This document shows positions 4,727 to 57,056 of a stretch of DNA of 64,000 nt, in pieces (the stretch's first letter is position 1; the number at the start of each line of letters is the position of its first letter). The notes beneath the pieces are model-generated. The model searched no databases. It was not told the origin of the DNA and worked only from the letters and a program-made list of their open reading frames with translations. Source of the DNA: Treponema socranskii subsp. paredis ATCC 35535 (GTDB lineage Bacteria; Spirochaetota; Spirochaetia; Treponematales; Treponemataceae); contig KE332516.1 in assembly GCA_000413015.1 (NCBI GenBank), forward strand, positions 186,001 to 250,000. Reading direction: 5' to 3'. Both the position numbers and the translations under genes were made by a program.

Positions 4727-5971
4727 TTAATCTCTTTGAAATAAATCCCGCGTATAAACTTTATCCTTTACATCACCAAGACAAGTATCATACCGATTGG
4801 TAACAATCACATCGGACTTGGATTTGAATATATCTAAATTATTTACAACCGTACTGCCAAAAAAAGTTTCTCCGTCGTTTAATATCGGTTCATAAATAAT
4901 AACATTCGCTCCTTTCGCTTTAATTCTTTTCATTACCCCTTGAATGGAACTTTGCCGAAAATTATCGCTGTTGCTTTTCATCGTTAACCGAAATAATCCG
5001 ACGGTAATCGGTTCCGCACTAGCTGCATAATCTCTTCCATCGGAATAATTGTAATACCCCGCCTTTTGTAAAACCCTATCCGCAATAAATTCCTTCCGTG
5101 TTCTGTTTGATTCCACAATTGCCTGTATAAGATTTTGAGGCACGTCGCGGTAATTTGCCAAAAGCTGCTTGGTATCTTTCGGAAGGCAATAGCCGCCGTA
5201 TCCGAAACTCGGATTATTGTAAAAATCTCCGATCCTCGGATCAAGCGAAACACCTTGAATAATCTGTTTTGCATTCAAGCCTTTAAGCTCCGCATAGGTA
5301 TCCAATTCATTAAAATAACTTACACGCAAAGCAAGATACGTATTTGCAAAAAGTTTAACCGCCTCGGCTTCGGTAGATCCCATAAAAAGCGTGTCGATAT
5401 TTTTTTTGCTCGCTCCGTCTGCAAGTAAATCGGCAAATGTATGAGCGGCGTCAACAAGCCATTCATCTTGTAAATCAGTACCGACAATAATACGGCTTGG
5501 ATACAGATTATCATATAAAGCTTTACTTTCACGGAGAAATTCAGGACTAAAAATAATATTTTTACAATTATATTTTTTACGGACAGATTCGGTAAATCCA
5601 ACGGGAACAGTCGACTTTATTACCATGAAGGCATTCGGATTATACTGCAATACCAGCTCAATCACATTCTCTACACATCGCGTATCAAAAAAATTAAGCT
5701 TTGTATCATAATTTGTCGGAGCGGCAATTATAACAATATCGGCATCGGAATAAGCAACTTTCGCATCCAGCGTCGCTGTAAGATGCAACGGCTTTGTTAG
5801 CAAATATTTTTCGATTTCTGCATCTTGAATCGGCGATTTTTTACTATTGATGAGATCGACTTTTTGCGGAATCACATCTACCGCCCAAACTTCATTGTGC
5901 TGACTCAAAAGAACGGCGACGCTAAGGCCGACATAACCGGTACCGGCTACAGCAATTTTAGTTATTTTCAC
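4727..5971 (-). CDS. ugd: UDP-glucose 6-dehydrogenase
   Basis: The enzyme oxidises UDP-glucose to UDP-glucuronate with two NAD. From the GTG at 5971 it is 414 residues. The Rossmann motif [10 protein letters not shown] begins at residue 10, the segment [10 protein letters not shown] follows near 120, and the catalytic cysteine sits in [14 protein letters not shown] (Cys262). The frame is open further upstream to an ATG at 6064, but that would add an unrelated 31-residue leader. The GTG is preceded by AAGG at an 8-base spacing and gives the normal family N-terminus, so I chose it. It is the first gene of the minus-strand polysaccharide operon and feeds the epimerase directly downstream. Confidence 0.92.
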
Positions 5972-9177: not shown

Positions 9178-10347
9178 TCAGATTTCGCCTTCTTCGACTT
9201 GCCCGAATTCGCAAAGCGAAAAAGCGACGTGCGCGTCTTCGATGATTTCGAGGCTTTTGCCGATGCGGCGGTACAATTTGATTTCTCCCGTTCCGCTTCC
9301 GCCCGAAAGCAATTTCATTACTTTTCGGTTTCCTTCGGGAAGTTCGATATTACGTACAAAGAGCTTCGACGTGTGACACACGATATCGATATCGATAACC
9401 CATTTTTTCGTATCGGCGCTCACCGACCAATGCAGCCGCTCGCCTTCTTCGTCGGCGGGCATTTCGGTGCAGTCCCACAAAATTTTTTCCGACGCACCTC
9501 TTTTTTTCGCTTCAAGCGCAATGTCCGTATCTTCGAGTTCGAGCGCGAGGGAGAGACTGTCTTCAAAAATTCCCTGCACGGTAAAGCTTGAATTGAACAA
9601 TGCCTTTCCGCTGATTCGGCTCGTCAAATTCGACGACGAAATATGAAAATAAGGAGCCGGAAACGTACGGAGAAAATGAGCGTCGATATAGCCGTAGGAT
9701 TTTTTCGGAAGCACGCTGAACTCGCGGCCGTCGAGCGTAATGCTTCCCGAAAATGCAGCACGCACTCCTGCGGGAATCCATTGCTCCGTGCTTTTTTTAT
9801 AACCTGCTGAAAATTGTTTTTGAATTTCACAGCGGAGCTCCCACGAAATCTCTCCCGCATCGCAAAAGTATTCGGGGTGAGACGCACGCTCTTTTGCCGT
9901 ACATGAAAGAGAGCCGGAAAGTCTACCGTCGTCGAAAGAACAATTTCCGACGGTGATCGGAGAAAGCCGAAATCCACCCGCAGTATCTTTCAGCGAATAA
10001 TAGCCGCAAATCTGTTTCGGCTTTGCACCGAAAGTTCCCGCGCGAACGGCGACGTACGACGGAGTTACGATCGATTCGGCGCGCAGATTGAGCGCCGCTT
10101 CCGTTCCCGCAAGCGCATACTGCAGATCGTCTTCGGAGATGGCGGTGCGCGATTTAAAACCGAGTACGCTTTCATCTTGAGAGAGAGAGGCATTGAGCAT
10201 TTCCAATTCGATAAAAAAAAGCTGTTCCGTACCGGAAATCGCATCGATAGCGGTAAAGACATAACGAGCCCACACAATGCCGTTTTTTTTGATCGCCGAA
10301 TGCGGTTTAAATTTGTTGAAATTAATAATTTTTTTCGGAGCTGTCAT
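9178..10347 (-). CDS. Tocopherol-cyclase-like / lipocalin-fold protein of unknown function
   Basis: 389 residues, no signal peptide, beta-rich. The stretch KKSYGYIDAHFLRTFPAPYF followed by HISSSNL near the middle resembles the GYxEKxWGxxFP...W...N signature of bacterial tocopherol-cyclase-like proteins. The tryptophans are replaced by Phe and Tyr here, so the match is distant. The substrate is unknown. The ATG has a GGAG seven bases upstream. A small acidic/basic protein gene (10368-10589) lies just upstream on the same strand, 20 bases away, and the two are probably co-transcribed. Calling it a hydrophobic-ligand-binding protein is inference from fold resemblance only. Confidence 0.4.
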   Translation of the reverse strand: MTAPKKIINFNKFKPHSAIKKNGIVWARYVFTAIDAISGTEQLFFIELEMLNASLSQDESVLGFKSRTAISEDDLQYALAGTEAALNLRAESIVTPSYVAVRAGTFGAKPKQICGYYSLKDTAGGFRLSPITVGNCSFDDGRLSGSLSCTAKERASHPEYFCDAGEISWELRCEIQKQFSAGYKKSTEQWIPAGVRAAFSGSITLDGREFSVLPKKSYGYIDAHFLRTFPAPYFHISSSNLTSRISGKALFNSSFTVQGIFEDSLSLALELEDTDIALEAKKRGASEKILWDCTEMPADEEGERLHWSVSADTKKWVIDIDIVCHTSKLFVRNIELPEGNRKVMKLLSGGSGTGEIKLYRRIGKSLEIIEDAHVAFSLCEFGQVEEGEI

Positions 10348-10611: not shown

Positions 10612-13600
10612 TTATAGCGACAAATCGATAATAAAGCCAGTGCCCTTTACCGATTTATCGCAGATTACCGCAGTATTTCCTTCGGCGATCGAGCGGGCGT
10701 TTTCAGCCGCCGTATGTAAAGAAGCGGCATCGACCGAAAGGATCGCTTCTATATACTCGCTCCATTCTTCATGAGTCATCGCGTAAAGCTTCCGCAAAAA
10801 CCCGCGCGCACCGCGCGACTGAGGAGACTGGGGTTTCGTCACGTCTCCGTATGTTCCCGTCACTGCACGGGAAACATCGGTATCGCTGAAACGCATAGCG
10901 CACACGTCGTCAAGACAGCTTTTAAATGTTTTTATAGATTCGAGCGGAGACGGATCGCGGTAGGTAGTCATCGAAAAGATTTCGGTTGAAATGTCAAAAC
11001 CCGCCGATGCACCGTATGCGCCGCCTGTCGTCCGTATGCGCTCCCAAAGGATATTGCCGCGCATCCAGTGGCAGAGCACCGTAAGAGCCGCTTTTTCCCG
11101 CATCGTCAATCCGCCGAGATACACCGATTGCGCCGCATAACCGACTTGTGACGAAAGTGCGCACATTTCAAAGCGTTCGCCGTCTTCTTCTCCATGGGCT
11201 TTTGTAAGCGCATAGTATTCGCCGTTTTCAGGCCGGACAAAAGGCGAAAGCGCGTGCAAGCCCGCCTTCCGTGCGAATTCGGGAATGCGCGGAAGCACGG
11301 TTTTAAGCGATGCTTCGTCGGCCGTAATGTGAATAAGACCTCCCGCATTTCGAATCGATTGGGCCATATCGGAAAAACGATTCCCGACCGAAGCGGGATT
11401 TTCTTTGCAAATCTTTTCGATCGCCAAAACCTGCGCGACGCCTCCCCACGCTTCTTCGACGGCGGAAGACCTTCCGAGATTTCGCGACGCTCTGAGTTTT
11501 GCGTAGCGCGAACCGGAAGGAATGACGGACGAACGGATATCATTTTTCATTTCGTCCAAAATCGTTTTGACTCGCTTTTCATCCGAAAATTCCGGAAACG
11601 CGATAGCTTCTCCGAAAAGCGCGAGTGCTTCATCCGTTTTTTCGACGGGCAGCTTGATGCTGAACGAAAGCCAATCGCGCCCGATATAGTGTTTGTCGCG
11701 AACCGAAAAAGCCGCCTTTTGCGCATACGCGCTTTTATACGAGTCGCCCGTCAGCGTGCGCACCCCCATATCGCCCGAGCACAGGGAAGCGGCGGCGGCA
11801 CACTCGTCCCATTTTTTCCCGTTCCAGCCGGTATTCGTCGCACAGGCGGCAAAGGCCGGAATATAGGGATATGCACCTATAGGAAGCGCATCGGCAGGAT
11901 AACACACATCGATATAGACGATACCGCCCGTCGCTTCGCGGTTTACAAAAAGCGCTACTTCGCTTCCGTCCGCGCCTAAACATGACGACACGTCGGTTAC
12001 GATCGGCTCGACTTTCTTTTTCAAATCCGACGGAAGAATATGCGGTATGCACGCAGTCTCTTTTTCCGTCTCTTTCCGCTTTTGATAGGCGTGCAGCGCT
12101 TCGGTGTTCCGCCGCACTTCACCGGCATCGGCGCTTTTTGTAAGAGATGCGATAAGCTCGCTTTCTTTTTTCGCACGTTGTTTTAAAAACGAAGCTTCGG
12201 GCGTTACGACGACGAAAGAGCGGGCGGTGTTGTCCAAAAAAACGCGCCGTATCAGAGACGCGATATAGTTTTTATCGGCGGCGATTTTTCGTTTGACCTT
12301 ATCGAAAGCTGAGCGGTAGCCGAGCGTCGATGCGGGAGATGCGCCGTAGTTCCAGCCGTTCAGTGCACGATCGGCGAGTTCGAGAGAAAAGGGATCGCCC
12401 CGCACGCGCACGACTTCGCGGTTTGCAAAATCGACGGCGAGAACTGCCGCATCGATATCGTTTTGCGGAATACCGTTTTCACACAAATCGACAAGCGTAG
12501 AAATTATTAATTTTCTTACCGCATCGGCATTTTTTTTATCGACGCCGCTCAAACCGAAATAGAGCATTTGACAAAACGCTTCGGCCCCTCCGCCTGCGGC
12601 GAGCCTTTCGCCCAAACGCGAATCGGTCAAGGCTTTTGCGATCGGAGAGCTGTCGTTTCCAGCGAGAAGCTGGAGCAAAAAAATCACTTCCATCGTATCG
12701 TCGATATTCGATGAAAGACCGTATCGCCAGTTGAGCGTTACGTTCGATTTTTTCGCATCCGATGCCGGGCCGGCCGCATAGACGACAGCTTCTTCACTCA
12801 TCGCTTTCGGCTCTTCAAGCTTTCGGAACTTTTCTCCGAAGGCGGGAAAACTTTTCGGCACATCGGGGATCGGATAGATTTTTTCAAGACGATCGAAAAA
12901 GCTTTGCTGCATAAAATCAAGCTGCGTTTCCGTCTTTATATTTCCGTATAAAAACAAAAGACAATTCGCCGGACTGTAATACGAGCGATGAAAATCTTTA
13001 AAGCGCTCATAGGTAAATGACGGGATGACGAGAGGGTCGCCGCCGGAATCGTTTGCATAGCAGGTGCCGGAAAACAGGCTTTTAAATTGTTCATCGAAAG
13101 CGACCGAATTGAACGACGAATAATTTCCTTTCATTTCGTTGTACACGACGCCCTGAATCGAATAGCCGCCCTTCCCGTCTTCTTCAAGGCGGTGCCCTTC
13201 CTGATAAAAGGTTTCTTTTTTTAACAAGGGAAAAAACACCGCGTCGGCATATACGTCCATCAAATGAAAATAATCTTTTTCGTTTGCCGAACTCGCGGGA
13301 TACACCGTCTTATCGGGATAGGTCATCGCATTTAAAAACGTGTACACGCTTTGATTCATCAAATTGACAAAAGGTTCTTTGACCGGAAATTTTTCCGAAC
13401 CGCAAAAAACCGAGTGTTCGAGTATGTGCGGAGCTCCCGTCGAATCGGCGACGGGAGTGCGGAACGCAAATGCAAAGAGATTTTCTTCATCGTTATTTAC
13501 TAAGTGAAAAATTTCGAGTCCCGTCTTTTTATGGCGGAGATACAATCCCTTCGATTCGCAGTCGAGGATATCGGAAATCGATATGAGGTCGAAGCCTTTA

Positions 13601-55613: not shown

Positions 55614-56006
55614 CTAGCGTACCGTCGCATCGACGGACGACGATCTGCCGCCTTCTATCCGCAAAAACACTTGATTCGGAAGACAGGCCGACCATTCGCC
55701 GCTTTCGCTTATCGGCATGGACTGCACGCAGGTTTTATTCGGACAGGGAGAATCGAGAAAACGAACCGTACCGTCCGAGATTTCGATGCGCGACGTACCG
55801 ATCGCCCCTTCAATATCGATAATTCTGTCTTTCGACATATCGTACGCAAAAGTACCGCGGGGAGTATGCACGAGCAGTTCTTTTCGATCCATACCGCCGC
55901 TGTACGCGTATGAAAATGCATATACCGTAACGGCCGCAAAAACGGCAAAAACGGCGATATCGATCAATTTAATTCTTCGAAAGAAATTTAAAAAAAAGCT
56001 TGACAT
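55614..56006 (-). CDS. NusG domain II (KOW-like) membrane-anchored protein
   Basis: 130 residues from the ATG at 56006 (GGTGG upstream). One N-terminal membrane segment (LIDIAVFAVFAAVTVYAFSY), then a NusG_II-like beta domain. Conserved features are the DSPCPNKTCVQSM cysteines and the downstream ACLPNQVFLRIEG. Such domain-II-only proteins occur widely in Firmicutes and spirochaetes with unknown function. A candidate sRNA promoter (56000-56028) overlaps its start region on the opposite strand. Confidence 0.8.
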   Translation of the reverse strand: MSSFFLNFFRRIKLIDIAVFAVFAAVTVYAFSYAYSGGMDRKELLVHTPRGTFAYDMSKDRIIDIEGAIGTSRIEISDGTVRFLDSPCPNKTCVQSMPISESGEWSACLPNQVFLRIEGGRSSSVDATVR

Positions 56007-56028
56007 TACGCCACCACTATAGTATATT
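56000..56028 (+). promoter_or_regulatory. Near-consensus promoter of the candidate sRNA
   Basis: TTGACA (56000-56005), 17 bases, TATATT (56023-56028). It faces away from the NusG_II gene and toward an intrinsic terminator 60 bases on. Confidence 0.7.
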
Positions 56029-56034
56029 TTAAGC

Positions 56035-56132
56035 AAGCTTGTAAATAAGCTGATAAACTCTCTCCGATGTCCAACTATGTTGGACGGTAGAGGCTCCGGG
56101 TGGCGTTGTCGTTCGGAGCCTCTATTTTTTAT
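56035..56132 (+). ncRNA. Candidate ~98-nt small RNA
   Basis: Bounded by the promoter at 56000-56028 and the terminator at 56089-56130. The predicted RNA has a GTCCAAC-TAT-GTTGGAC hairpin (56069-56085) and the strong terminal stem. No start codon with a ribosome-binding site lies inside, and both flanking genes are on the other strand. It has no visible match to tRNA, SRP, tmRNA or 6S features. Function unknown. Confidence 0.55.
56089..56130 (+). terminator. Terminator of the candidate sRNA
   Basis: A perfect 10-base stem AGAGGCTCCG/CGGAGCCTCT (56089-56098, 56114-56123), 15-base loop, then ATTTTTT. It works on the plus strand only. Confidence 0.85.
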
Positions 56133-56138
56133 TTACAC

Positions 56139-57056
56139 CTACCGCAATCCGAGACGGATCGACTGCGCGTTTTTAAGAGCGCAATCCATACCGAAGCGAA
56201 CCGCATCGGCAAGCGATTTTCCCGCAAGCAGGCTGTGCATCATACCGGCGGTAAGCGCGTCTCCGCAGCCTATCGTATTGACGACGGGTACTTCTTTATT
56301 CGGAACGGCGGAAAAATCATTTCCGTCATACACCCACGTATCGAATTTGCCTCGGCTTATGACGCTTTTCGTTCCGTAATCGTCGAATATCTTTTTTGTA
56401 ACGGAATAAACGGTTTCACGGAGAGCATCGGAATTTTCATTTTCGAAAACGACGCGCCCCTTTTCCACGGTTGCCACAAGCTCGGAAAGATTCGGTTTAA
56501 TAACATCGGGACGAAAAAGGAGCGAGCGCCGTAAATCTTCACCCTTTAAGTCGAGTACGACAAGCTTTCCCAGCTCTTTCGCCCTCGCCGTCATGCGGGA
56601 ATAGAGATCGGCTTCATAGCCTTGGGCGCGAGTGCCGGTGATAACGAGCGCATCGAATTGTCCGATAAGCGAATCGAATAAATCGAACGCGCGTTTTCCG
56701 GCGCCTTTTTCAACGGCGAGCGGCTCCTGCACGATTTCCGTACTCGTCTTTTTTTCACCGTTGACGATATTGATACACGTTCGTACGGGACTCGTTGACG
56801 GAAAAGATTCGAGGATGATATTTTCAGCTTTACAAAGATCGAGAAATTCACCTGCACGGCTTCCGCCGAGATGGGTCAATACATGCGCTTCGGTTCCGAG
56901 CTGCGTCAAAACTCGAGCGACGTTTACCCCCTTACCCGAAGGAAGCGTAAAATAATTTGCGGTACGGTTCACTTCATTTTCATAAAAAGAATCGAGTACG
57001 ACCGTAAGCTCAAACGTCGGATTCAAACAAACCGCAAGCACTTTTCCGGATTTCAT
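56139..57056 (-). CDS. PfkB-family 1-phosphofructokinase / tagatose-6-phosphate kinase
   Basis: 305 residues. Motif 1 is LPSGKGVNVARVLTQLG; motif 2 is VVNTIGCGDALTAGMMHS, with Cys where most members have Ala next to the catalytic Asp. SGKGVNVA marks the phosphosugar-kinase branch (FruK/LacC), not ribokinase. It lies downstream of a class II ketose-bisphosphate aldolase on the same strand, so together they could phosphorylate a ketose phosphate and cleave the bisphosphate. AGGAG before the ATG. Substrate (fructose-1-P or tagatose-6-P) undecided. Confidence 0.87.
   Translation of the reverse strand: MKSGKVLAVCLNPTFELTVVLDSFYENEVNRTANYFTLPSGKGVNVARVLTQLGTEAHVLTHLGGSRAGEFLDLCKAENIILESFPSTSPVRTCINIVNGEKKTSTEIVQEPLAVEKGAGKRAFDLFDSLIGQFDALVITGTRAQGYEADLYSRMTARAKELGKLVVLDLKGEDLRRSLLFRPDVIKPNLSELVATVEKGRVVFENENSDALRETVYSVTKKIFDDYGTKSVISRGKFDTWVYDGNDFSAVPNKEVPVVNTIGCGDALTAGMMHSLLAGKSLADAVRFGMDCALKNAQSIRLGLR

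Follow-up and report, generated by a model that had tools for sequence, protein, structure and literature searches.

A predicted small RNA gene of the Treponemataceae with an invariant unpaired core and complementary sites in host and phage leaders

The RsaE/RoxS RNAs of the Firmicutes are trans-acting, base-pairing small RNAs (sRNAs) that carry a C/U-rich, anti-Shine-Dalgarno seed. For the Spirochaetes very few sRNA families have been catalogued—six in a 2022 survey (PMC9029176). In enterohaemorrhagic E. coli, the phage-derived ‘anti-sRNA’ AgvB mimics an mRNA substrate of GcvB and blocks the seed of that sRNA (PMC4104026).

The predicted RNA described here lies in the genome of Treponema socranskii, within a stretch of 64,000 nt (‘the window’) that was analysed as a whole. 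It resembles RsaE/RoxS in being a free-standing gene with its own promoter and intrinsic terminator, and in having a short, invariant, unpaired C/U-rich proposed seed with flanking hairpins that fits G/A-rich sites near ribosome-binding sites; it differs from them in sequence, structure and phylum, in having a host without detected Hfq, and in being confined to the Treponemataceae. In an Rfam search of the window and 19 further loci no family matches at the RNA, and we found no description of it in the open-access literature searched or in Rfam itself. An initial sequence-only reading had judged it unlike tRNA, SRP, tmRNA or 6S RNA; in agreement with this, no Rfam model reaches its gathering threshold at the RNA. 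The best-scoring model over the full length is that of McaS (RF00115; 17 bits, E 1.3), but its gathering score, 42 bits, is far above this and the likeness rests mainly on the terminator. The Hfq model (PF17209) matches none of 10 genomes tested, versus 5 of 14 controls.

Architecture and fold of the RNA gene

Following the plus strand from the promoter downstream (Table 1), we see a TTGACA box (56000-56005), a 17-nt spacer and a TATATT box (56023-56028), with the +1 of the RNA predicted at 56035/56036, its 5' end as AGCUUGUAAAU, and its 3' end within the T-tract. The promoter, claimed at the outset to be the best of the region, tops a scan of 54-58 kb, and the strong terminator that had been proposed is found at the position given for it (hairpin 56086-56126, then T-tract), its 19 stem pairs (9 G-C) being the most among the eight terminator-like sites in that interval. 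Lone sites of either kind arise by chance—54-58 kb holds 8 promoter-like sites (shuffle mean 4.7) and 8 terminator-like sites (shuffle mean 6.7)—and our certainty about the feature comes instead from conservation of the unit across the genus. A promoter and an intrinsic terminator of its own are what one looks for in a trans-acting sRNA, and this RNA has both.

Table 1. Features of the RNA locus in the window, and complementary sites in phage contigs and host leaders
Feature	Position	Strand	Sequence or basis
Sigma-70-type promoter, TTGACA-17-TATATT	56000..56028	+	11/12 consensus matches
Small RNA gene, ~97 nt	56036..56132	+	Covariance-model match; fold z = -5.6; covariation
5' hairpin AGCUU-GUAAAU-AAGCU, begins at +1	56036..56051	+	Predicted fold
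Unpaired core, proposed seed	56052..56068	+	GAUAAACUCUCUCCGAU; unpaired in MFE fold; invariance; complements elsewhere
Second hairpin GUCCAAC-UAU-GUUGGAC	56069..56085	+	Covariation
Intrinsic terminator, hairpin and U-tract	56086..56132	+	Terminator scan; all 10 lower-stem pairs covary
Divergent NusG_II-domain gene (context, outside the RNA)	55614..56006	-	PF07009, E 1.2e-19
Convergent pfkB-family sugar kinase gene (context)	56139..57056	-	PF00294
L372, three core complements	9373-9389, 9912-9928, 11201-11217	+	Coding strand, between small genes
L416 (related 21-kb contig), two complements	0-based offsets 314, 1983	-	One with 2 mismatches
L458, one complement	5598-5614		Third related phage, other metagenome, 62% protein identity
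ABC-permease leader sites, L428 and L431			GUCGGAGGGAGUUUUUC / GUCGGAGGGAGUUUUAUC
ABC-permease leader site, L432			AUCGGAGAGAGUUUAUU
ABC-permease leader site, L435			UUCGGAGAGGGCUUAUC

Both flanking genes lie on the minus strand. An overlap of the promoter with the start of the NusG_II gene had been suggested, and the ATG of that gene, at about 56006, does adjoin the -35 box; the overlap is a local one, not conserved in relatives. A further promoter-like site, TTTACA-18-TATAGT (10/12; 56006-56045), is present on the minus strand; a NusG_II message begun there would have its 5' end almost at the ATG, and this gene may therefore be leaderless and may compete with the sRNA promoter. On the other side, the pfkB-family gene scores below cut-off against models for hexose kinase and 1-phosphofructokinase.

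The 97-nt RNA folds at -40.9 kcal/mol, none of 200 shuffles being equally stable, and gives a full-length covariance-model match (G000:C2:242036-242132, E 4.4e-17). Two of its parts were missed by the sequence-only reading: the 5' hairpin (AGCTT/AAGCT in the DNA; AGCUUGUAAAUAAGCU) and, directly after it, the most conserved part of the whole molecule, GATAAACTCTCTCCGAT (56052-56068). Within the genus the 5' hairpin is nearly fixed, with 4 of 5 pairs invariant in alignment A1; in divergent members three pairs are changed on both sides, and outside the genus other 5' hairpins stand in for it (AGAUU/AAUCU, AGUCA/UGACU, GGCCA/UGGCU). The adjoining AACUCUCUCC is identical in 45 of 45 diverse members, including those where the 5' hairpin sequence was exchanged. 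The second hairpin, GTCCAAC/GTTGGAC, is present as had been claimed, with both-side changes at 6 of its 7 pairs in A1 and at all 7 in A2; like the terminator, it varies freely in sequence.

Covariation of the hairpins in relatives, which had been named as a check on the proposal, is strong in all three helices. In A1, a sequence-only alignment not fitted to structure, we count 149 double-changed cells where shuffles give 42, a signal that disappears once the partners are slid; in A2, wider and fitted to structure, the count is 283 against 71; in each case none of 500 shuffles reaches the observed value. Helices free in sequence around an unpaired stretch that is fixed are the signature of either a base-pairing seed or a sequence-specific protein site.

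Occurrence within the Treponemataceae

Queried by blastn, a 231-nt region recovers the RNA from 31 of 35 further species in the GTDB genus of T. socranskii, and covariance model R1 places it in 129 of 146 genus genomes (62 of the 64 good-quality ones). Order- and phylum-wide searches with covariance models add seven sister genera of the same family (g23, g24, g25, g26, g28, g31 and g32) and give no match in any other family at E <= 0.001; genera g21 (2.8 Mb genomes, putatively T. denticola-like) and g22 (putatively T. pallidum-like, and including a 1.14 Mb genome) yield no significant match, absence calls being affected by the incompleteness of metagenome-assembled genomes and the E-values being rough. 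Matches to a core 11-mer in T. denticola-like, T. pallidum-like and other-family genomes come without promoter or hairpins, and were rejected as instances of the RNA. Named records carrying a 22-nt core are, among the matches listed, all Treponema or Spirochaetes; T. bryantii, T. socranskii, T. porcinum, T. berlinense, T. ruminis and T. zioleckii are among them. Many genomes hold two copies of the RNA and some three; several possess a paralogous form with GATAAAACTCTCTCCTTTAG, one of these having a chromosome of 2,731,853 bp, and a shorter form lacking the second hairpin also occurs.

The proposal had been staked on promoter and terminator being conserved together in relatives, and both are kept in 165 distinct homologous loci (those that a loose filter for promoters let through). 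The -35 box matches at 6/6 positions in 120 of these and at 5/6 in a further 30; the spacer is 17 nt long in 119, its sequence not being conserved.

Complementary sites in host and phage leaders

Across 116 genus genomes, the sole outstanding place outside the sRNA itself to combine GGAGAGAGTTTATC with supporting context is L379, the leader of a binding-protein-dependent permease (PF00528) whose best NCBIfam models—SaoP, NtrB, TauC and SsuC—all score below cut-off. A search of orthologues located a site in the same leader in four more species, making five in total among the 29 examined; the leaders of the other 24 hold nothing comparable. The five TauC/SsuC-like ABC permease leaders carry a near-perfect complement of the 17-nt core, some 15-40 nt upstream of the start codon; their differences are mostly wobble-compatible (GGAGGGAG), with A-to-G changes remaining pairable as G-U. 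Core/leader duplexes range from -22.6 to -28.3 kcal/mol, values that 200 shuffles of each leader failed to reach even once, and the RNA is present in all five species. Different inverted repeats flank the site in at least L379, L428 and L432.

Palindromes such as TAACATACTAAGTTAGTAGGTAA or ATATACCTAGTTAGTTAATAGGTA are also seen in the permease leaders (L379, L428, L431, L432, L435) and in those of orthologues L424-L448; these probably represent a repressor operator. The likeness of the permease to sulfonate/taurine transporters (TauC/SsuC), together with the frequent serine acetyltransferase neighbour of the RNA (see below), offers only a hint of sulphur metabolism.

Our target search was pattern-based and sampled. 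The exact 11-nt core complement, GGAGAGAGTTT, was set aside as a target finder: in most genomes it picks out nothing but the sRNA locus or coding sequence, and no conserved target at a start codon. No target was found in the genome to which the window belongs, where two extra core-complement matches fall inside coding sequence. Nor was GGAGAGAG before ATG clearly enriched over a reversed control (13 genomes). The combination GGAGAGAGT plus ATG, in 116 genomes, marks many real gene starts (lipoproteins, ABC/TRAP substrate-binding proteins and others) with no recurrent orthologue; because such sites are ordinary Shine-Dalgarno sequences too, it gives no decision on targets. Start codons in L392, L393, L395, L396, L397 and L225, from different species, bear GGAGAGAGTTTATG, and the genes concerned are of envelope/transport type (lipoprotein, TAXI-type and NMT1 substrate-binding proteins, C39 peptidase transporter); these may be direct targets or ordinary Shine-Dalgarno sites. 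The substrate-binding protein of L397 was considered as partner of the L379 permease operon and rejected, showing no similarity to the L379 neighbour.

Further complements are found in phages. L372, a 54-kb viral contig with terminase and portal genes, has three, of which one reads UCGGAGAGAGUUUAUCAGCUUAUUUACAAGCU-AAGGAGG: 32 nt that are antisense to almost all of the RNA's 5' part, directly before a ribosome-binding site. With L416 and L458 (Table 1) this makes six complements over three related phages, most of them immediately 5' of a ribosome-binding site. A 15-nt CGGAGAGAGUUUAUC is common to all but one, with diverging flanks; the element has the form (AU)CGGAGAGAGUUUAUC, and in most cases a hairpin comes next, then AAGGAG immediately ahead of the start codon, whilst the exact L416 site and L458 keep only CGGAGAGAGUUUAUC, with a different hairpin after it. 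There is no sRNA promoter or terminator on the opposite strand, and hence these sites cannot be further sRNA gene copies. A long match points to a Treponema host for the L372 group. At module ends, the phage sites precede tiny reading frames ending AP-stop: MRMPQAP and MYWPTAP (L372 11247-11270; L416 minus strand, ATG at 2073).

In genome G026, L040, a mobile region that encodes a D5-type phage/plasmid primase, holds a site that agrees over 21 nt with the complement of the window-type RNA. On this primase-bearing region the antisense site (L028 and L040) adjoins IS66-like genes. It also runs into GUUGGAC, and so fits the second hairpin of the T. socranskii-type RNA better than that of G026's own, a fit that suggests transfer between hosts. 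Viral contigs L413-L415 and L417 contain the 17-mer within one coding-like sequence, which we took as chance; L418-L423 match hairpin sequence only, without the core, and plasmids and INPHARED phages gave no match.

AgvB is an experimentally established parallel to the phage sites: those of L372, L416 and L458, which are Treponema-like phages, are complementary to the proposed seed of a host sRNA and so mimic its putative target. They differ from it in lying within intergenic leaders of phage mRNA, in up to three copies, whereas AgvB is a separate sRNA gene. They may act as decoys (‘anti-sRNAs’) that titrate the RNA, or belong to phage messages that make use of it; both presuppose pairing. That the repeated antisense elements are decoys, and the sRNA a point of spirochaete/phage conflict or hijacking that operates without Hfq, is a tentative reading to which we give somewhat less than even weight.

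Competing readings and a candidate mode of action

The RNA usually sits between two opposite-strand genes, and the gene downstream is convergent at most loci; the gene most often found beside it is serine acetyltransferase (58 loci), then RadA (42 loci), with NusG_II in the place of RadA in 14, the window included. Such a setting would suit a cis-antisense RNA silencing the opposite-strand operon (serine acetyltransferase-RadA, or PfkB-NusG_II here), yet we regard this as very unlikely: neighbours change (NusG_II, PfkB, others), serine acetyltransferase flips its orientation relative to the RNA between loci, and the conserved core is unrelated to the neighbours, whose leaders, considered as targets, are not consistently complementary to the RNA apart from the DNA overlap as such. 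Harder still to credit is a cis-acting, riboswitch-like leader or attenuator whose downstream gene has been lost or missed; it would account for the intrinsic terminator and for the same-strand downstream neighbour of some species, but not for the convergent gene, nor for a terminator that is always the 3' end, with no antiterminator alternative seen and with copies in one genome differing in context. No conserved downstream gene was found across homologous loci and, since both the neighbours and their orientation vary, the RNA is not the leader of one given gene.

Titration of protein deserves more weight, though we still think it unlikely. CsrB titrates CsrA, and CrcZ titrates Hfq/Crc; here, the invariant pyrimidine-rich stretch would likewise sequester an RNA-binding protein, with pairing incidental. 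A single short invariant motif, a constitutive-looking promoter, the failure to find a broad conserved set of mRNA targets, and the lack of detectable Hfq are all in keeping with this. Titrating RNAs usually have many copies of their motif, however, where this one has a single copy, and titration does not predict complements conserved in ABC and phage leaders with mostly wobble-compatible changes. A core that stays invariant as the surrounding helices change sequence is also the pattern expected of a seed.

The existence of an unannotated sRNA gene, as originally claimed, gains support from the conserved promoter/RNA/terminator unit, the covariation and the absence of an Rfam match; its architecture, conservation and covariation, and the sites complementary to it, are established by genome comparison. 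Judged on the same comparison, it is likely an independent gene for a trans-acting, base-pairing sRNA, specific to the Treponemataceae and with natural targets, which probably works by pairing with messenger RNAs, and which phages may also exploit. The trans-acting sRNA would be transcribed from its strong housekeeping-type promoter, its start protected by the 5' hairpin and its end set by its own intrinsic terminator, so as to expose a fixed, single-stranded seed of 11-17 nt between two structural hairpins. In the cell, the partners of this seed would be G/A-rich sequences (AUCGGAGAGAGUUUAUC) that lie at a ribosome-binding site or upstream of it. Rumen-type species have one of these in the leader of the TauC/SsuC-like ABC-transporter permease, where pairing would alter translation or stability of the message, more likely by repression. 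Other targets presumably exist.

The RNA is nearly universal in the large group of gut, rumen and oral Treponema, and its cultivable carriers include T. bryantii and T. socranskii. Its clear seed, the candidate target with complementary sites in five species and the complements borne by phages open post-transcriptional control to direct tests in a spirochaete that apparently has no Hfq.
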